Positions 23,329-49,933 of a stretch of 64,000 bases of DNA are shown one piece after another (within the stretch, counting starts at the first letter, position 1; every line of letters starts with the position of its first letter). Below the pieces are notes generated by a model. That model was given only the letters and a program-made list of their open reading frames with translations. It searched no databases and was not told the origin of the DNA. The translations under genes and the position numbers were made by a program. This DNA is from Oscillospiraceae bacterium. Its GTDB lineage: Bacteria > Bacillota > Clostridia > Oscillospirales > Oscillospiraceae. The DNA lies in assembly GCA_902795195.1 (NCBI GenBank), contig CADBKF010000007.1, forward strand, positions 1 through 64,000, in the 5' to 3' direction.

Positions 23329-23357
23329 TTGACAAAAATCGCGGATTTTTGTATAGT
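23329..23357 (+). promoter_or_regulatory. Promoter of the polyamine locus
   Basis: -35 TTGACA (23329-23334), 17-bp spacer, -10 TATAGT (23352-23357). It lies about 310 bp upstream of the decarboxylase start, implying a long leader RNA. Confidence 0.88.
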
Positions 23358-23360
23358 ATA

Positions 23361-23670
23361 GACATACGCAAGGGAATATCCCAGAGTCAAGCGTATGTCG
23401 GACCACTTCTGCGGAAGTTAAGGCCATACGGACAGCCGGGTCCACTGCCGATCGGCGGCTTGCCGCCTTATTGAATTTTATAAGTTGGTTCATAACCAAA
23501 ACTGCGTTTACGGCGCAGGCTTGTGAAACGGTCAATAAGAGCAGATCACGTTTGGCTCTAAAATCCGCGGCCTTGTTCGGCGGCTTTTGCCGTCGTTGGA
23601 GGCGCGTCCCCGGATCATGTTTCGCAGGCTGTGTCACAGCCTGCAATTTTTTTGTATTGAGGTGCTGGCC
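23361..23670 (+). ncRNA. Structured leader RNA of the polyamine operon (unidentified cis-regulator)
   Basis: Transcribed 5' region with several perfect stems: GACATACGC/GCGTATGTC (23361-23369, 23391-23399); GGACC/GGTCC (23400-23404, 23449-23453) enclosing hairpin ACTTC/GAAGT (23405-23418); GGCGGC/GCCGCC (about 23455-23470); CTGCG/CGCAG (about 23502-23518). It ends in an intrinsic terminator (23624-23653) placed just before the decarboxylase SD. GCAGGCTTGTG at 23515-23525 nearly duplicates the terminator's 5' arm and could pair with its 3' arm. A possible 8-codon leader peptide (23395-23421) overlaps. I do not recognise a known riboswitch or T-box consensus. Confidence 0.6.
23624..23653 (+). 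terminator. Attenuator terminator before the decarboxylase gene
   Basis: GCAGGCTGTG (23624-23633) pairs with CACAGCCTGC (23635-23644), followed by AA and seven T. It lies 18 bp upstream of the start codon, between promoter and gene, so it can only act as a conditional terminator. Confidence 0.8.
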
Positions 23671-25146
23671 ATGGATGAAAACAGAGAATTTGAGCATGTC
23701 GAGGCGCTCGACCAGAATGAGGCGCCGATCTACGAGGCGCTGCAGACCTTCCGGCAGATGCGCGTGGTGCCCTTTGACGTGCCCGGCCACAAGCATGGCC
23801 GCGGCAACCCGGAAATGACCGCCTTCTTGGGTGAAAAATGTGTCTCCATCGACGTCAACTCCATGAAGCCGCTGGACAATCTCTGCCACCCCGTGTCGGT
23901 CATCCGCCGGGCGGAGGAGCTGGCGGCCGACGCCTTCGGCGCGGCGCACGCCTTTTTGATGGTCGGCGGCACGACCAGCTCCGTGCAGACCATGGTGCTG
24001 GCCACCTGCAAGCGCGGCGACAAGATCATCCTGCCGCGCAACGTCCACCGCTCGGTCATCAACGCGCTCGTGCTCTGCGGCGCGGTGCCGGTTTATGTCA
24101 ACCCCGAGGTCGACGACCGGCTGGGCATCTCCCTGGGCATGCGGCGCGACCAGGTCGCCAAGGCGATCCGGGAGCACCCCGACGCCGTGGCGGTGCTGGT
24201 GAACAACCCCACCTATTACGGCGTGTGCTCCGACCTCAAGATGATCACGGCCATGGCGCACTCGGCCGGCATGTACTGCCTGGTGGACGAGGCCCACGGC
24301 ACGCACTTTTATTTCGGCGCCGGCATGCCCACCACCGCGATGGAGGCGGGCGCGGACATGGCGGCAGTCTCCATGCACAAGTCCGGCGGCAGCCTCACGC
24401 AGTCGAGCTTCCTGCTCACCGGGCCCAACATGAACCCCGGCCACGTGCGGCAGATCATCAACCTGACGCAGACCACCTCGGGCTCCTATCTTCTCATGTC
24501 CAGCCTGGACATCAGCCGGCGCAACCTGGCCCTGCGGGGCAGGGAGGTCTTTGCCAAGGTCGTGACCATGGCCGACTACGCCCGCGAGGAGATCAACGCG
24601 ATCGGCGGCTACTACGCCTTCGGCAAGGAGCTGGTCAACGGCGACTCCATCTTTGATTTTGACCCCACCAAGCTCTCGATCCACACCAGGGACATCGGCC
24701 TTGCCGGCATCGAGGTTTATGACATTCTGCGCGACGAGTACGACATCCAGATCGAGTTCGGCGACATCGGCAACATCCTGGCGTATCTGTCCATCGGCGA
24801 CCGGCCGCAGGAGCTCGAGCGGCTGGTGTCTGCGCTCGCGGAGATCCGCCGGCGCTATCAGAAGGATCCGTCCGGCCTGCTCTCCTCCGAGTACATCGAC
24901 CCCGAGGTCGTGGCGAGCCCCCAGTATGCCTTCTACGCGCCGAAAAAATCCGTGCCCCTGCGCGAGAGCGAGGGCATGGTCTGCTCGGAATTTGTCATGT
25001 GCTATCCTCCCGGCATCCCGATCCTCGCCCCCGGCGAGCGCATCACCAAGGACATCCTGGATTATATCGAGTTCGCCAAGGAGAAAGGCTGCTCCATGAC
25101 CGGCCCGGAGGACCCGGATATCCTTCGCCTGAACGTGCTGGCCTGA
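23671..25146 (+). CDS. speA: Orn/Lys/Arg decarboxylase, probable arginine decarboxylase
   Basis: PLP-dependent decarboxylase, most likely arginine to agmatine given the downstream speE and speB. The 491-residue protein is the short form typical of B. subtilis SpeA (about 490). PLP-binding SMHKSGGSLTQSS contains the Schiff-base lysine; N-terminal FDVPGHKHGRG and LVDEAHGTH are family signatures. The start at 23671 is chosen over an in-frame upstream ATG because GAGGTG lies in SD position and the upstream stretch covers the attenuator. speE follows 20 bp later. Confidence 0.9.
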   Translation: MDENREFEHVEALDQNEAPIYEALQTFRQMRVVPFDVPGHKHGRGNPEMTAFLGEKCVSIDVNSMKPLDNLCHPVSVIRRAEELAADAFGAAHAFLMVGGTTSSVQTMVLATCKRGDKIILPRNVHRSVINALVLCGAVPVYVNPEVDDRLGISLGMRRDQVAKAIREHPDAVAVLVNNPTYYGVCSDLKMITAMAHSAGMYCLVDEAHGTHFYFGAGMPTTAMEAGADMAAVSMHKSGGSLTQSSFLLTGPNMNPGHVRQIINLTQTTSGSYLLMSSLDISRRNLALRGREVFAKVVTMADYAREEINAIGGYYAFGKELVNGDSIFDFDPTKLSIHTRDIGLAGIEVYDILRDEYDIQIEFGDIGNILAYLSIGDRPQELERLVSALAEIRRRYQKDPSGLLSSEYIDPEVVASPQYAFYAPKKSVPLRESEGMVCSEFVMCYPPGIPILAPGERITKDILDYIEFAKEKGCSMTGPEDPDILRLNVLA

Positions 25147-25166: not shown

Positions 25167-26024
25167 ATGGAACTATGGTTTTCTGAATTCCACGCGCCGG
25201 ATGTGCAGCATATGATCCGCGTGAACCGGCATTTGTATTCCCAGAAATCGGACTATCAGCAGATCGACATCTTTGACACGCCGGAGTTCGGGCGGGTGCT
25301 GGCGCTCGACGGCAACGTCCAGCTCACCGAGCGCGACGAATTCATCTACGACGAGATGATCACCCACGTGCCCATGGCCGTGCATCCGGGCATCAAGGAC
25401 GTGCTGGTCATCGGCGCCGGCGACGGCGGCGTTGTCAAGGAGCTGGCCCGGTATGAGCGCATCGAGCGCATCGACCTGGTCGAGATGGACCCCGAGGTGG
25501 TCAAGGCCTGCCGGATGTATCTGCCCGAAAACGCCAGCCGTCTCGACGACAGCCGCGTGCACATCTACTACGACAACGCGCTGCGCTTTATCCGCCGCTG
25601 CAACGCGAAATACGACCTGATCATCGTCGATTCCACCGACCCCTTCGGTCCCTCCGAGGGCTACTTTACCCGCGAATTCTACGGCATCTGCTTCAACGCG
25701 CTGCGCGAGGATGGGATTATGGTAAACCAGCAGGGCAGCCCGTTCTACAAGCACGACGCCGAGGCCATGCAGAGAAGCCACCAGCGCATCGTCTCCACCT
25801 TCCCGATCTCGCGCGTCTACCAGGCCCATATCCCGACCTATGCGGCCGGCTACTGGACCTTCGGCTTTGCCAGCAAGAAGTATCACCCGGTCAACGACCT
25901 GGACGCCGAGGGTTGGAAGAAGCTGAATCTGCAGACGAAATACTACACCACCAAGCTGCACGTGGGCGCGTTCTGCCTGCCGGCGTTTTTAGAGCGCATG
26001 CTGGAGGAGGTCGAGCACAAATGA
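25167..26024 (+). CDS. speE: Polyamine aminopropyltransferase (spermidine synthase)
   Basis: Transfers aminopropyl from decarboxylated SAM to putrescine or agmatine. The 285-residue protein has the nucleotide loop VIGAGDGGVVKE, the acidic VEMDPEVV and the catalytic VDSTDPFGPSEGYF. Between an arginine decarboxylase and an agmatinase-type ureohydrolase it may act on agmatine to make N1-aminopropylagmatine (inference). No speD (SAM decarboxylase) is in the window. ATGA overlap with speB. Confidence 0.94.
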   Translation: MELWFSEFHAPDVQHMIRVNRHLYSQKSDYQQIDIFDTPEFGRVLALDGNVQLTERDEFIYDEMITHVPMAVHPGIKDVLVIGAGDGGVVKELARYERIERIDLVEMDPEVVKACRMYLPENASRLDDSRVHIYYDNALRFIRRCNAKYDLIIVDSTDPFGPSEGYFTREFYGICFNALREDGIMVNQQGSPFYKHDAEAMQRSHQRIVSTFPISRVYQAHIPTYAAGYWTFGFASKKYHPVNDLDAEGWKKLNLQTKYYTTKLHVGAFCLPAFLERMLEEVEHK

Positions 26025-26881
26025 ACCCGAATGTAGAGACCTTTCTCGGCTGCGACGCGGGCTTTGCGGAGGCGAAGATCGTCCTCTTCGGCGCACCCTT
26101 CGACTCCACCACGAGCTTCCGTCCCGGCGCCCGCTTCGGCAGCGCCGCCATGCGGCACGAGAGCTTCGGCCTGGAGAGCTACAGCCCCTACCAGGACAAG
26201 GACCTGACCGATTACGCGGTGTTCGACTCCGGCGATCTGGAGCTCTGCTTTGGCTCGAGCGAGCAGGCGCTGGCGGACATCGAGGCCCGGGCCAGGGAGA
26301 TCCTGGACGCCGGCAAGCTGCCGCTGCTGATCGGCGGCGAGCATCTGGTGACGCTCGGCAGCGTGCGCGCGGTGCTGGAACGATACCCCGACCTGCACAT
26401 CATCCACTTTGACGCACACACGGACCTGCGGGACGACTATCTGGGCGCAAAGCTCAGCCACGCCTGCGTGATCCGCCGTTGCCACGACCTTCTGGGCGAC
26501 GGCCGCATCCACCAGTTCTGCATCCGCAGCGGCGAGCGGGCCGAGTGGGAATTTGCAAAGCAGCACACCGAGCTGCACCCGTTCTGCTTTGACGGGCTTG
26601 CGGAGTGCTGCGAGCGCCTGGCTGCCAGCGGCGCGCCGGTGTATTTCACGATCGACCTCGACTGCCTGGACCCGTCGTGCTTCCCCGGCACCGGCACGCC
26701 CGAGGCCGGCGGCGTGAGCTTCCCGCAGCTGCTGGACGCCATTCTGACCGTCTGCAAAACCAACGTGGTTGCCGCCGACGTCAACGAGCTGGCCCCCATG
26801 CTCGACCCCAGCGGCGTCTCCACCGCCACCGCCTGCAAGGTCCTGCGCGAGCTGCTGCTGGCACTCTCAGACAACATGTAG
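26021..26881 (+). CDS. speB: Agmatinase / N1-aminopropylagmatine ureohydrolase
   Basis: Manganese ureohydrolase releasing urea from agmatine or aminopropylagmatine. The 286-residue protein has the Mn ligand motifs GGEH, HFDAHTDLR and the SIDxDxxDP-equivalent TIDLDCLDPSCFPGTGTPEAGG. The start overlaps speE by 4 bp. Its TAG stop (26879-26881) lies inside the first GTAG-headed repeat unit, so the repeat supplies the end of the gene. Confidence 0.94.
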   Translation: MNPNVETFLGCDAGFAEAKIVLFGAPFDSTTSFRPGARFGSAAMRHESFGLESYSPYQDKDLTDYAVFDSGDLELCFGSSEQALADIEARAREILDAGKLPLLIGGEHLVTLGSVRAVLERYPDLHIIHFDAHTDLRDDYLGAKLSHACVIRRCHDLLGDGRIHQFCIRSGERAEWEFAKQHTELHPFCFDGLAECCERLAASGAPVYFTIDLDCLDPSCFPGTGTPEAGGVSFPQLLDAILTVCKTNVVAADVNELAPMLDPSGVSTATACKVLRELLLALSDNM

Positions 26882-27356
26882 GGACAAGCCTCGCTTGTCC
26901 GAAAACAGAGCTTCGGATAGAAAAACCGGACGAGCGCGGCTCGTCCCTACGGCAAGGTCAAAAAACAGTGTAGGGACAAGCCTTGCTTGTCCGGAGAATA
27001 ACGCAGAGAAAACCGCAGAGAAAAACCGGACGAGCGCGGCTCGTCCCTACGGCAAGGTCAAAAAACAGTGTAGGGACAAGCCTTGCTTGTCCGGAGAAAA
27101 CCGCAGAGAAAACCGGACGAGCGCGGCTCGTCCCTACGGCAAGGTCAAAAAACAGTGTAGGGACAAGCCTTGCTTGTCCGGAGAAAACCGCAGAGAAAAA
27201 CCGGACGAGCGCGGCTCGTCCCTACGGCAAGGCCAAAAAACAGTGTAGGGACAAGCCGCCTTGCTTGTCCGGAGAAAAACGCAGAGAAAACCGGACGAGC
27301 GCGGTGTCCCTGCAACAAGGTCAAAAAACAGTGTAGGGACAAGCCTTGCTTGTCCG
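26878..27356. repeat. Array of RAYT-associated palindromic units (left side)
   Basis: Units at 26878-26950, 26970-27050, 27070-27137, 27157-27225, 27245-27312 (right end degenerate) and a left half at 27333-27356. Each full unit is GTAG plus hairpin (GGACAAGC...GCTTGTCC), an A-rich centre and an inverted hairpin (GGACGAGC...GCTCGTCC) ending CTAC. Units are separated by a nearly identical 19-bp spacer (GGCAAGGTCAAAAAACAGT). The centre differs: unit 1 has ACAGAGCTTCGGATAG, inner units have CCGCAGAG. The half unit faces the transposase gene. Confidence 0.93.
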
Positions 27357-27386
27357 AAAAGCCTAATGAACAGGTGATGATGAACG

Positions 27387-27857
27387 ATGAATCCGTTTCC
27401 GACCCGGAAGAAAAATCGTCTGGAAAACTACGACTACTCGTTGCCGGGGTTTTATTTCATCACCTTTTGCACAGAAGGCCGCAAATGCATCCTGGGAAGT
27501 ATAGAAGAAAACGCGGATGATGCAAAGATTTGTTTGTCCCAATTTGGGAAAATAACGCAGGATGCGATCGAACGCATATCAAAAAGCTATAGCGGCGTAT
27601 TTGTTGACAGTTTTGTTATCATGCCAAACCATGTTCACATGATCCTGGTTTTACAGGACGGGTTTGATCAACTGCCAACCATCTCCAGAGTTGTTCAGCA
27701 GACAAAAGGTTTGATCAGCAAAAGAGTTGGCCAAAGGATTTGGCAGGTGCATTTTCATGAGCATGTGATTCGCGGTGAACAGGATTACCGGGAAATATGG
27801 GAGTATATTGAGCAAAATCCGGAAAAATGGATGTTGGATCGATATTACTGCGAATGA
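27387..27857 (+). mobile_element. REP-associated tyrosine transposase (RAYT, IS200-like Y1 family)
   Basis: A 156-residue single-strand transposase gene. The HUH motif is PNHVHMIL (His82, His84), and the C-terminal FHEHVIRGEQDYREIWEYIEQNP is typical of RAYT/TnpA-REP proteins. The catalytic Tyr is probably Tyr134 or Tyr140 (not assigned). The coding sequence is visibly AT-richer than its neighbours, suggesting acquisition. It lies between a left half-unit (27333-27356) and a right half-unit (27864-27887) of the surrounding palindromic repeat, as if the full element is hairpin-gene-hairpin and the other units are gene-less derivatives. It splits the polyamine gene cluster. Confidence 0.92.
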
Positions 27858-27863
27858 AAACAA

Positions 27864-27979
27864 CGGACGAGCGCGGCTCGTCCCTACGGCAAGGTCAAAA
27901 AAACATGTAGGGACAAGCCTTGCTTGTCCGAAAACAGAGCTTCGGATAGAAAAACCGGACGAGCGCGGCTCGTCCCTAC
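27864..27979. repeat. RAYT-associated palindromic units (right side)
   Basis: Right half unit 27864-27887 directly after the transposase stop, a 19-bp spacer, then a complete unit 27907-27979. This last unit and the first unit (26878-26950) are almost identical, including the ACAGAGCTTCGGATAG centre, so the array has matching outer units and different inner ones. The next gene's SD follows 9 bp later. Confidence 0.93.
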
Positions 27980-28002: not shown

Positions 28003-29262
28003 ATGAGCAGAGTATTAGTGATCGGCTGCGGCGGCGTGGCGAATGTCGCGATCCGCAAGTGCTGCCAGGTTTCGGAGGTCTTCACCGAGCTGTGCATCGC
28101 GTCCAGGACCAAGTCCAAATGTGACGCCCTTGCGGAGGCTCTCAAGGGCAAAACCGCAACCAAAATCACCACCGCCCGCGTGGATGCGGACAATGTGGAG
28201 GAGCTTTGCTCCCTCATCAACAGCTACAAGCCCGACCTCGTTATGAACATCGCCCTGCCGTATCAGGACCTCACGATCATGGACGCCTGCCTGGCCTGCG
28301 GTGTCAACTACATGGACACGGCCAACTACGAGCCCGAGGACACCGACGACCCCGAATGGCGCAAGATCTACGAAAAGCGCTGCAAGGAGCAGGGCTTCTC
28401 TGCCTACTTTGACTACTCCTGGCAGTGGGCCTACCGCGAGAAGTTCGAGCAGGCGGGCCTGACCGCCCTGCTGGGCTGCGGCTTCGACCCCGGCGTGACC
28501 CAGGCCTACTGCGCCTACGCCAAGAAGCACCAGTTCGATGAGATCGACACCATCGACATCCTCGACTGCAACGGCGGCGACCACGGCTACGCCTTCGCCA
28601 CCAACTTCAACCCTGAGGTCAATCTGCGTGAGGTCTCCGCGCCCGGCTCCTACTGGGAGGACGGCCATTGGGTCGAGATCCCGGCGATGAGCATCAAGCG
28701 GGAGTACAACTTCGACCAGGTGGGCGACAAGGACATGTACCTGCTCCACCACGAGGAGATCGAGTCGCTGGCGCAGAACATCCCCGAGGTCAAGCGCATC
28801 CGCTTCTTCATGACCTTCGGCCAGAGCTATCTGACGCACATGAAGTGCCTGGAGAACGTCGGCATGCTCTCCACCACACCGATCCTGTTTGAGGGCAAGG
28901 AGATCGTTCCGATCAAGTTCCTCAAGGCCCTGCTGCCGGACCCGGCCAGCCTCGGCCCCCGCACCCACGGCAAGACCAACATCGGCTGCATCTTCACCGG
29001 CCGCAAGGACGGCAAGGAGAAGACCTACTATATCTACAACGTCTGCGACCACCAGGAATGCTACAAAGAGGTCGAGAGCCAGGCCATCAGCTATACCACG
29101 GGCGTTCCGGCCATGTGCGGCGCGCTGATGATGCTGACCGGCAAGTGGACGCAGAAGGGCGTGCACACGGTCGAGGAGTTCGATCCCGATCCGTTCCTGG
29201 ACGCGCTGGACAAGTACGGCCTGCCCAGAAGCGAGAATTTCGAGCCCAAGCTGGTGGATTAG
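28003..29262 (+). CDS. Carboxynorspermidine/carboxyspermidine dehydrogenase (saccharopine dehydrogenase family)
   Basis: Reductive condensation of aspartate semialdehyde with a diamine (putrescine or diaminopropane), using NADPH, to carboxy-polyamine. The 419-residue protein has the Rossmann start VLVIGCGGVANVA (4-16) and the saccharopine-reductase fold, including LLGCGFDPGVTQAYC. Its role is inferred from the adjacent nspC gene. SD GGAGG lies 8 bp before ATG, just after the repeat array. Confidence 0.9.
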   Translation: MSRVLVIGCGGVANVAIRKCCQVSEVFTELCIASRTKSKCDALAEALKGKTATKITTARVDADNVEELCSLINSYKPDLVMNIALPYQDLTIMDACLACGVNYMDTANYEPEDTDDPEWRKIYEKRCKEQGFSAYFDYSWQWAYREKFEQAGLTALLGCGFDPGVTQAYCAYAKKHQFDEIDTIDILDCNGGDHGYAFATNFNPEVNLREVSAPGSYWEDGHWVEIPAMSIKREYNFDQVGDKDMYLLHHEEIESLAQNIPEVKRIRFFMTFGQSYLTHMKCLENVGMLSTTPILFEGKEIVPIKFLKALLPDPASLGPRTHGKTNIGCIFTGRKDGKEKTYYIYNVCDHQECYKEVESQAISYTTGVPAMCGALMMLTGKWTQKGVHTVEEFDPDPFLDALDKYGLPRSENFEPKLVD

Positions 29263-29393: not shown

Positions 29394-30683
29394 ATGGACA
29401 ACAGAGCACCGTTTCAAATACTCGGTTCCCAGACCCCGGAACAGCTGTTCGGGGGCCTGAAAACGCCGTGCTATATCCTCGACGAGGCTGCCCTGATCCG
29501 CAACGGCGAGATTATGCAGGGCGTGGCCCGGCGCACCGGGGCACGGATGCTGCTGGCCCAGAAGGCCTTTTCCAACTACGACTGCTATCCGATCCTGGCG
29601 CCGTTTCTGGCGGGCACCGAGGCCAGCGGCTTGTTTGAAGCCCGGCTCGGCAGAGAGGAGCTGCCTGAGAAGGAGAACCATGTCTTCTGCGGGGCCTATC
29701 GGGATGATGAATTTGACGAGCTGCTCCGCTATGCCGATCATATCGTCTTCAATTCCCCGGCGCAGCTGGCCCGCTTCGGCGGCAAGGCGAAGCAGGCCGG
29801 CAAGAGCCTGGGTCTGCGCGTCAATCCGGAGCGCTCCACGCAGGAGGGCCACGCGATCTACGATCCCTGTGCGCCCGGCAGCCGCCTGGGCACGAACCGC
29901 GCCCAGTGGGACCGCTATATGACGGACGAGCTGATCGGGCTTCTGGACGGGCTGCACTTCCACACCCTCTGCGAGCAGAATTCCGACGATCTTGAGACCA
30001 CGCTGGACGCTTTCGCGGAAAAATTCGGGGACGTGCTGCCCCGAATGCGCTGGCTCAACATGGGCGGCGGTCACCATGTCACGCGGCCCGACTACGACAT
30101 CCCGCGGCTCGAGCGCTGCATCCGGCGGGCGCAGCAGGCGTGGGGCGTCACGGTCTATCTCGAACCCGGCGAGGCCTGGGCGCTGAACGCGGGTTTTCTG
30201 GCAAGCCGCGTTCTGGACCTCACGGAAAACAGCGGCGTCAAAAACGCGATCCTGGATGCCTCAGCTGCCTGCCACATGCCGGACGTGATCGAAATGCCCT
30301 ACAGCCCGCCCATCTTTGAAGCACAGGAGAGATCAGAACCCGTAGGGGACGGGTCCCCCGTCCCCGTAACGGACGGTTCCCCCGTGCCCGCAGCGGATGG
30401 GGCCCCCGTCCCGCTCCGGGAACCGGGATTCGATTGTTTGTATCGCCTCGGCGGGCCGACCTGCCTGGCCGGCGACGTGATCGGCGATTACGCCTTCCGG
30501 AAGCCGCTGCAGGTGGGCGATCTGGTCCTCTTTGGCGATCTGGCGATCTATTCCACCTGCAAGAACAACACCTTCAACGGCATGCCCCTGCCGGACATCT
30601 GGCTGCGGCACAGGGACGGCCGCCTCGAGCGCCTGACGGAATTCGGCTATGCCGATTTCAAAGGGCGGCTCGGAAGACGATAG
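29394..30683 (+). CDS. nspC: Carboxynorspermidine decarboxylase with in-frame repeat insertion
   Basis: PLP enzyme (alanine-racemase-fold decarboxylase) converting carboxy(nor)spermidine to (nor)spermidine. The 429-residue protein has the PLP-lysine region LLAQKAFSNYD (about 51-61), the glycine-rich NMGGGHHVTRPDYD and the C-terminal RLGGPTCLAGDV. It is longer than typical NspC (about 380-400) because residues 317-340 are three 8-residue repeats of the pattern xxDGxPVP, encoded by a triplicated palindromic DNA repeat. The insertion lies just before the conserved GGPTCLAGD motif, in what is probably a surface loop. Whether the enzyme is active is unknown. Confidence 0.9.
   Translation: MDNRAPFQILGSQTPEQLFGGLKTPCYILDEAALIRNGEIMQGVARRTGARMLLAQKAFSNYDCYPILAPFLAGTEASGLFEARLGREELPEKENHVFCGAYRDDEFDELLRYADHIVFNSPAQLARFGGKAKQAGKSLGLRVNPERSTQEGHAIYDPCAPGSRLGTNRAQWDRYMTDELIGLLDGLHFHTLCEQNSDDLETTLDAFAEKFGDVLPRMRWLNMGGGHHVTRPDYDIPRLERCIRRAQQAWGVTVYLEPGEAWALNAGFLASRVLDLTENSGVKNAILDASAACHMPDVIEMPYSPPIFEAQERSEPVGDGSPVPVTDGSPVPAADGAPVPLREPGFDCLYRLGGPTCLAGDVIGDYAFRKPLQVGDLVLFGDLAIYSTCKNNTFNGMPLPDIWLRHRDGRLERLTEFGYADFKGRLGRR
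30342..30413 (+). repeat. Three tandem 24-bp REP-like units inside the nspC reading frame
   Basis: Units 30342-30365, 30366-30389 and 30390-30413. The first is intact: GTAG followed by GGGACGGG-TCC-CCCGTCCC. The other two are diverged (GTAACGGACGG..., GCAGCGGATGG...). Each is exactly 24 bp and codon-aligned, so the frame is kept. Confidence 0.9.
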
Positions 30684-48592: not shown

Positions 48593-48611
48593 ATATGCAC
48601 AACTGAATAGC

Positions 48612-48742
48612 CTTATCAAGAGTGGCGGAGGGACCGGCCCTGTGAAGCCCGGCAACCTACAGCAATGTAAGGTGCCAAATCCGGCGAGAAATCGGCAGAT
48701 GAGGATGCATGACAACCAACTCTGCGAAAGCAGAGTTTTTTT
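48612..48742 (+). promoter_or_regulatory. SAM-I (S-box) riboswitch controlling metK
   Basis: Starts CTTATCAAGAG and contains GGAGGGAC, TGAAGCCCGGCAACC and AAGGTGCCAAATCC in order, the S-box consensus. The expression platform ends in a terminator, CTCTGC-GAAA-GCAGAG (48720-48735) plus seven T. It is expected to stop transcription when SAM is abundant. Confidence 0.95.
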
Positions 48743-48766: not shown

Positions 48767-49933
48767 ATGATGAACAAACGAATTTTTACCTCCGAATCCG
48801 TCACGGAGGGACATCCCGACAAGGTCTGTGACCAGATCTCCGACGGCGTGCTCGACGCCATTCTGGCCCACGACCCCATGGCCCGCGTGGCCTGTGAGTG
48901 CGCCGCTACCACCGGCATGGTGCTGGTGATGGGCGAAATTTCCACCAACTGCTATGTGGACATCCAGAAGGTCGCCAGAGAGACCATCTGCAAGATCGGC
49001 TATGACAAGCCCGAGGCCGGCTTCAACGGCAACACCTGCGCGATCCTCACCACGATCCACGAGCAGTCCGGCGACATCGCCATGGGCGTCGACCGCTCCT
49101 ACGACGACGGCGAGACCAACGGCGCAGGCGATCAGGGCATGATGTTCGGCTTCGCCTGCGACGAGACCGAGGAGCTCATGCCAGCGCCCATTTCCTATGC
49201 ACACAACCTCTCCCGCGCGCTGGCCGAAAAGCGCCGCGACGGCACGCTGAGCTGGCTGCAGCCCGACGGCAAGAGCCAGGTCTCCGTCCAGTACGGCGAC
49301 GACGGCAAGCCCGAGCGCATCGACACGGTGGTCGTGTCCACCCAACACAGCGAAGAAGTTGACATAACAACTCTGCGCGAGGCGGTCATTGAGACCATCA
49401 TCCGGCCCCATCTGCCCAAGCGCCTGCTGGATGCGGACACCCGCTTCTTTGTCAATCCCACCGGCCGATTCGTGCTGGGCGGCCCGGCGGCGGACGCCGG
49501 CCTGACCGGCCGCAAGATCATTGTGGACACCTACGGCGGCTATGCGGCCCACGGCGGCGGCGCCTTCTCCGGCAAGGACCCCACCAAGGTCGACCGCAGC
49601 GCGGCCTACATGGCCCGCTACGTGGCCAAGAACATCGTCAAGGCCGGTCTTGCCACCAAGTGCCAGATCGAGCTGGCCTACGCCATCGGCGTGGCGCAGC
49701 CGGTCTCTGTGCTTGTGGAGACCTACGGCACCGGCAAGCTCAGCGACCTGCGCCTGGCCGAGCTGGTCAAGCGCTGCTTCGATCTGCGCCCCGCGGCCAT
49801 CATCGAGACCCTCGACCTGCGCCGGCCCATCTACCAGCAGACCGCCGCCTACGGCCACTTCGGCCGCCGCGAGCTGGATCTGCCCTGGGAGCGCACCGAC
49901 GCGGTGGAGAAGCTGCTTGCGGAAGCAATCTGA
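48767..49933 (+). CDS. metK: S-adenosylmethionine synthetase
   Basis: Makes SAM from methionine and ATP. The 388-residue protein has TEGHPDK near the N-terminus, the GAGDQG ATP-binding motif and [16 protein letters not shown]. Two adjacent ATG codons (48767, 48770) follow the SD GGAAAGG; either could be used. Under S-box control. The Nif3-like gene follows 17 bp later. Confidence 0.96.

Follow-up and report, generated by a model that had tools for sequence, protein, structure and literature searches.

A conserved structured leader RNA with a predicted transcription attenuator ahead of polyamine genes, probably a polyamine riboswitch

The window analysed here is a stretch of 64,000 nucleotides from an Oscillospiraceae bacterium (assembly GCA_902795195.1, contig CADBKF010000007.1, positions 1 to 64,000). 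It contains a group of polyamine genes in the order decarboxylase, speE, speB, a repeat-rich stretch, a CASDH-like gene and an nspC-like gene (Table 1). The product of the first of these falls short of the curated NCBIfam cut-offs for lysine, ornithine and arginine decarboxylases. Its ATG at 23671, with a Shine-Dalgarno-like GAGGTG, follows shortly 3′ of the T-run of an intrinsic terminator, and the leader between promoter and ATG is ~300 nt long. Folding of this leader (23364-23653) gave -119.4 kcal/mol, compared with -92.7 +/- 5.34 kcal/mol for 200 dinucleotide shuffles (z -5.0), none of which was as stable. A real structured leader RNA is thereby confirmed ahead of the polyamine genes. The preliminary description of this DNA had reported a strong promoter, a stem-rich leader and a terminator directly before the Shine-Dalgarno sequence of the decarboxylase gene, and each of these observations holds.

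Table 1. Features of the polyamine leader and the genes that follow it, in window coordinates
Feature	Position	Strand	Remarks
Sigma-70-type promoter, TTGACA-17-TATAGT	23329..23357	+	11/12 consensus matches
5′ hairpin GACATACGC/GCGTATGTC holding AGAGTC	23361..23399	+	
Closing helix (alternative pairing), AGAGTCAAGCGT with ACGTTTGGCTCT	23383-23394/23548-23559	+	encloses the whole domain
Conserved RNA element (model R1 positions 1-196)	23399..23559	+	109.7 bits
5′ module, match to Rfam RF02440	23400..23451	+	P2, P3 and P4 covary
P2	23400-23404/23439-23443	+	
P3	23405-23409/23414-23418	+	
P4	23422-23424/23435-23437	+	
Possible 3-bp pseudoknot, CGG 23429-23431 with CCG 23448-23450	23429..23450	+	
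P5 hairpin GGCGGC/GCCGCC	23454..23467	+	two-sided changes at 6/6 pairs
P7, TATTGA 23469-23474 with TCAATA 23532-23537	23469..23537	+	encloses P9
P9, TTTTATAAG 23476-23484 with CTTGTGAAA 23520-23528	23476..23528	+	encloses P8 and P10
P8	23487-23490/23494-23497	+	
P10	23502-23506/23514-23518	+	
Putative antiterminator strand CGCAGGCTTGTGA (P10 3′ + P9 3′)	23514..23526	+	complementary to terminator 5′ arm
P11 hairpin AGAGC/GCTCT	23538..23559	+	compensatory relative to the common AGAGT/ACTCT
Intrinsic terminator	23622..23653	+	5′ arm from 23622; stem 23624-23644 (9 pairs); then AA; T7 23647-23653
speA-type Orn/Lys/Arg decarboxylase, first regulated gene	23671..25146	+	PF01276, E 4.3e-72
speE, polyamine aminopropyltransferase	25167..26024	+	NF002010, 363 bits (cut-off 260)
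speB, agmatinase	26018..26881	+	TIGR01230, 264 bits (cut-off 174); start unrefined
Carboxynorspermidine synthase-like (CASDH)	28003..29262	+	NF043000, 418 bits (below cut-off 800)
Carboxynorspermidine decarboxylase-like (nspC)	29394..30683	+	TIGR01047, 394.8 bits (just below cut-off 409)

Several other features of the window and its genome may be recorded here. In the repeat-rich stretch (26927-27975), CGGACGAGCGCGGCTCGTCC occurs six times without mismatch, and an 88-bp unit is repeated four times in tandem (27006-27356). A small ORF amid these repeats (27387-27857) matches Y1_Tnp below threshold (20.5 bits, cut-off 23), and the whole resembles a REP/RAYT-type element that sits within the polyamine gene cluster. 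Elsewhere, a SAM-I riboswitch (RF00162, 81.1 bits) is located at 48610-48705 ahead of an ORF at 48767, which we take to encode S-adenosylmethionine synthetase (metK). A search with PF02675 found no AdoMet decarboxylase in the window's genome, which is 92.8% complete. The genome thus has speE without a detected AdoMet decarboxylase, a combination also described for the pneumococcus (PMC7531197).

A single Rfam family, RF02440 (SpF59_sRNA, "ldcC RNA"), matches the leader: positions 23400-23451 align with the full model (1-54) at 70.8 bits, against a gathering threshold of 37.2. Apart from a chance match to U6, no other Rfam family was detected at E <= 5 in 23340-23700, and RF02440 alone matched at the corresponding place in 18 related loci. 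The preliminary description had found no known riboswitch to which the leader could be matched, and had suggested an Rfam scan in which a hit to a known class would speak against a new sensor. There is such a hit, so that the first statement holds for riboswitches and fails for Rfam families; it is a known class only in a formal sense, as RF02440 is entered as a 54-nt sRNA.

Conservation runs far past these 54 nt on the 3′ side. When an exact 23-mer of the core was scanned through the genome collection, it was found at a minimum of 118 loci; among the matches listed are Bacillus, Neobacillus, Paenibacillus, Cohnella, Kurthia, Faecalibacterium, Gemmiger, Phascolarctobacterium, Acidaminococcus, Blautia and many Clostridia MAGs. 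The element that emerges occupies 23399-23559 plus flanks in the window and ~200 nt elsewhere, with the domain ranging from ~160 to 230 nt. Eleven helices (P2-P12) were modelled: a 5′ module of P2, P3 and P4, followed by P5, P7 (enclosing P6 and P9), P9 (enclosing P8 and P10), and P11 and P12. The two stems of RF02440 are P2 and P3 of this model.

Pairing was assessed in two alignments. A1, made with MAFFT only, comprises 53 hand-picked rows out of 62 non-redundant ones; its source set was drawn from the 118 loci without one that lacks GACC (L110), 16 that lack the expected 3′ end, and those with <60 nt of flank. (With long 5′ flanks included, alifold yielded no usable consensus.) In A1, 93.4% of cells are paired, as opposed to 88.6% in shuffles, and two-sided changes occur at 24 of 59 pairs, where shuffles give 12.3 +/- 1.7. 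Two covariance models were used, R1 with 196 positions and R2, built separately for the 3′ domain. Alignment A4 was fitted to the model and has 90 rows (86 distinct, 87 outside the training rows of R1); its type-2 and streptococcus-like rows match the model only partially. Its paired fraction is 96.2% (86.2% shuffled), two-sided changes are found at 44 of 56 pairs (21.3 +/- 2.1 shuffled, a number reached by 0 of 500 shuffles), and sliding the partners reduces pairing to 32-44%. P7 and P9 are nearly invariant in A4, with two-sided changes at 3 of 7 pairs of P7, and P10 is poorly aligned. The possible pseudoknot is invariant in A1, and covariation neither supports nor contradicts it. The closing helix appears in the window's unconstrained fold, its closing strand pairing over at least ten positions; across relatives, matched strands scored -10.21 and permuted ones -8.90 +/- 0.29 (0 of 3000 permutations, n=55). 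For the portion of the helix outside the element, taken by itself, 19 of 3000 permutations did as well, and for two control segments 681 and 2561 of 3000. The proposal of a structured sensor, which the preliminary description would have given up had stems not been conserved upstream of orthologues, is strengthened in that the stems are both conserved and covarying upstream of the relatives' genes. The window copy lacks the P6 hairpin that is usual within P7 of relatives, and likewise the usual P12 motif (GTAAAAGTA..TTGCTATATAG). It is a reduced member of the group, and its function could be altered.

The RNA is widespread. Of 147 genomes in the window's order, R1 matches 39, R2 the same 39, and RF02440 33, all of them within the 39; the Rfam entry, which covers the 5′ module only, thus misses six of the larger elements. 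The element is present in 3 of 10 genomes of the window's family in this sample, and as a single copy in the window's own genome. Further afield, R1 matches 21 of 200 genomes in the class of G066. With R2, matches occur in 15 of 97 genomes from the family to which G543 belongs and in 6 of 98 from the order that includes G477, and RF02440 reaches its cut-off in 9 of 249 genomes of a phylum-wide sample. One R1 match of 17.5 bits (L128) lies within a coding sequence and was discarded as false. A phage or mobile-element origin was also rejected: the exact 21-mer core is absent from viral_contigs, and the element of L007, an intact relative from Paenibacillus, had no blastn match in phages. The same element had one match among plasmids, on a 2.7-Mb Paenibacillus replicon.

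Of 190 element loci, seven end within 43 nt of the element. Downstream sequence is readable at the other 183, and the first reference-protein match encountered at every one of these is a polyamine gene; seven proteins served as reference in this test, such that another gene could intervene. These genes are speA (63, window included), speD (51), CASDH, or carboxynorspermidine synthase (48), and potA (21). After removal of duplicates, the 190 loci reduce to 183 and those with a gene to 176 (speA 61, speD 49, casdh 45, potA 21). The median distance from element to gene is 157 nt, with two of the 183 beyond 450 nt (L193, 639 nt; L197, 914 nt). Loci sampled from genomes regardless of their genes gave the same picture, with a polyamine gene in 71 of 71, one being a duplicate. 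In the potA loci inspected, two permease-like ORFs come next and a binding-protein-like ORF is found in three of four; one PotA (L031) scores above the NCBIfam cut-offs for spermidine/putrescine ABC ATPases.

Eight weaker matches from the order sample (L200-L207) were kept outside the 190. Six of these precede polyamine genes directly, and two are exceptions. The copy in G302, from the window's own family (L238, C1:249400-254400), precedes a secreted M28 peptidase with a PA domain, and no polyamine gene was found in the rest of the 5-kb stretch around it. In G383, three other small ORFs come before speD-speA, which begins 2.1 kb on. Direct placement before a polyamine gene thus applies to 37 of the 39 order copies.

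Between the RNA and the gene, a terminator was found at 170 of the 183 loci, compared with 113 of 915 shuffled spacers. The rule applied overlooked the window's own terminator, which a separate terminator search recovered. Across these loci, the strand made up of P10 3′ and P9 3′ (consensus ..gACUUGUG) can pair with the 5′ arm of the terminator, for example CGCAAGUUGUGCA. In a permutation test on 167 loci (the 170 plus the window, minus four without a CUUG-like motif), the duplex scored -12.89 for matched strands and -11.64 +/- 0.14 when strands were permuted within gene class. For 43 non-redundant loci, which include no casdh locus, the matched score was -12.37; permuting across all of them gave -9.79 +/- 0.36, and permuting inside gene classes -10.18 +/- 0.36 (0 of 5000 permutations in each case). 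A control segment elsewhere in the RNA was equalled in 934 of 2000 permutations. A single-sequence search had left the matter unsettled, with the best partner at P9 for 72 of 171 terminator arms (chance 330 of 3420) and elsewhere for the other 99; the predicted pairing was settled by the covariation test, which included P10. It appears strong in many loci, though not in all, and it supports the identification of the covarying strand as an antiterminator.

In the window, the duplex of antiterminator strand and terminator arm is calculated at -17.4 kcal/mol. The preliminary description had pointed to a near-copy of the terminator arm at 23515-23525 as a possible antiterminator within an attenuator. 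The motif is present there, and the role is upheld by the covariation of the strand that includes it; only the detail was amiss, as the strand would act as the complement of the terminator 5′ arm and not as its copy. With the antiterminator forced, the calculated fold is -101.2 kcal/mol, compared with -119.4 kcal/mol in the terminator state. The terminator fold is the more stable, and therefore the switch would have to be co-transcriptional. This order of energies is as expected in models of a kinetic switch, yet it is no proof of one.

Taken together, the comparative sequence evidence gives good probability to a reading in which a large conserved RNA domain forms the centre of a cis-acting transcription attenuator in this leader and serves as a riboswitch, with spermidine or a close polyamine as its ligand. 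The attenuator part is the more certain, and the identity of the ligand the less so. Two riboswitch-type properties are found, namely a conserved structured domain ahead of genes of a single pathway and, as judged by comparison, a platform of mutually exclusive terminator and antiterminator. In the proposed mechanism, the ligand would bind the RNA directly and stabilise the folded domain, P9 and P10 would then hold the antiterminator strand, and the terminator would form and stop transcription. If the ligand were absent, the antiterminator strand would capture the 5′ arm of the terminator and the operon would be transcribed. An OFF switch is proposed because the antiterminator strand sits in P9 and P10, so that stabilisation of the domain should favor termination. 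In the cell, genes for polyamine synthesis and import would thus be switched off when polyamines are plentiful.

By established pathways, arginine decarboxylase, AdoMet decarboxylase, the carboxyspermidine route and import by PotABCD all lead to spermidine. Spermidine or a close polyamine is favored as ligand because it is the end product common to all of these. The same RNA switch could instead sense an upstream metabolite, such as agmatine, arginine, putrescine or a SAM-derived compound. This is a rather unlikely alternative, and one for which the neighbouring genes can be read both ways: speA, which makes agmatine, and speD, which uses SAM, are the neighbours in 62 loci (besides the window) and 51 loci, respectively, but arginine, agmatine and SAM are a poor fit to the CASDH (48) and potABCD (21) neighbours, and no AdoMet decarboxylase was found in the window's genome by PF02675. 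Among the ligands listed in the preliminary description, a polyamine would therefore fit the regulated genes best, whereas arginine, agmatine and SAM explain only part of them.

The same choice between terminator and antiterminator might also be set by a protein bound to the RNA domain, one responsive to polyamines or to some other signal. The comparative evidence for the attenuator would be identical under such a reading, and proteins can recognise RNA domains of this large, conserved kind. Yet the domain occurs widely (Bacillaceae, Paenibacillaceae, Oscillospiraceae, Negativicutes and others) with no conserved regulator gene so far noted at its side, and its complexity and near-invariant core resemble an aptamer, making a protein sensor an improbable explanation next to the riboswitch.

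The name of the Rfam entry implies a further reading, in which the RNA is a small RNA acting in trans, as in SpF59 (F59, SN20, srn235). It is listed as an sRNA in PMC3395615 and PMC12323649, and SN20 is a discrete transcript of 318 nt with a predicted promoter and terminator, at 869478-869791 between SP0915(-) and SP0916(+) (PMC2887815). Other accounts give 327 nt (869478-869804, as srn235/F59 or M7; PMC12323649) and 82 nt for F59 (PMC3395615). Transposon insertions in srn235/SN20 resulted in a lung fitness of 0.05 (PMC3395615, Table 2), and in one paper an FMN switch was suggested for SN20 from a shared motif. No mechanism for RF02440, SpF59 or ldcC RNA was found among open-licence PMC papers. 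A free-standing trans-acting RNA is nevertheless very improbable: all 183 readable loci place the RNA in cis before four kinds of polyamine gene, 170 of them with a terminator, and this terminator covaries with the RNA; a discrete transcript is what termination itself would yield.

SP_0916 is an arginine decarboxylase gene (PMC7531197), and the RNA from which RF02440 takes its name lies directly before it. In four close relatives with a SpeA start similar to the SP_0916 primer used in PMC7531197, the -10 box and the end of the terminator are 322-332 nt apart, and the published lengths of 318 or 327 nt fit a terminated leader. Because of this position and this length, the pneumococcal SN20/srn235/F59 is probably the terminated leader of an arginine decarboxylase gene, a conclusion drawn from the relatives' loci. 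In the sources cited, this RNA was published as an sRNA, whereas the leader described here is read as a cis attenuator.

Attenuation by a leader peptide, from the ORF at 23395-23421 or another small ORF, is scarcely credible: the ATG..TAA frame raised in the preliminary description as an alternative sensor does exist in the window, but an ATG is kept at the corresponding place in 8 of the 187 elements with enough flank, the 93 of 187 with a nearby ATG, GTG or TTG start and at least six codons include ATG-led peptides and stops that are unrelated, and conservation tracks RNA pairing.

To return to the putative riboswitch, its architecture varies in a manner that appears modular. Losses of the 5′ module, which is the RF02440 core, appear independent of losses of the 3′ module, which comprises P9/P11/P12 with GUAAAAGUA..UUGCUAUAUAG. 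For example, the 5′ core is absent from one speA and one potA locus (L201 and L205) and from the type 2 RNAs, all before speA; in the window, L117, L005 and L200 it is the 3′ motif that is lacking or shortened. A crude tally, with all three modules in 148 of 185 elements, conflates absent and merely divergent modules and was not relied on. Tentatively, the RNA could represent a new, widespread class of polyamine (spermidine) riboswitch of unusual size, with two separable sensor modules on one platform. Were each module to bind one polyamine, a steep or graded response might result.

Two kinds of variant deserve mention. In the type 2 RNAs (L177, L178, L179 and L197, from G477, G543, G244 and G692, respectively), the 3′ domain is shared and the RF02440 core is exchanged for another conserved 5′ part; the genus g295 contains both RNA types. 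A minimal member (L203 in G335, complement of 580-712) has P6-P10 replaced by a short P7 loop, which keeps CACUUGA, complementary to UCAAGUG of its terminator arm.

A leader RNA with a terminator is an ordinary device. Its form here is unusual: large, and little described. The RNA is common and highly conserved, its expression platform is readable, and a 54-nt Rfam entry would grow to a domain of ~200 nt. If the interpretation is true, the pneumococcal virulence "sRNA" srn235/SN20 would be recast as an arginine decarboxylase leader, and the defects caused by insertions in it might stem from disturbed polyamine genes and not from lost regulation in trans.

Polyamine riboswitches were long doubted. 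Among leader RNAs already known, a T-box was rejected, since its model found no match where RF02440 and the chance U6 match were alone at E <= 5. The canonical SAM-I riboswitch at 48610-48705 of the window is likewise a leader riboswitch, unrelated in sequence and structure to the present leader. A close functional parallel is the spermidine riboswitch of Salvail et al. (PMC10853860), a SAM-I variant that, on paper, is also turned OFF by transcription termination before polyamine genes. It is a different RNA, and identity with it was rejected, as no SAM-clan match occurs in 23340-23700 even at E <= 5. According to that paper, this rare SAM-I derivative is the only accepted class of polyamine riboswitch and its authors expect more. 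It was drawn from 13 representatives, and the RNA described here is far commoner, with 39 of 147 genomes in a single order.
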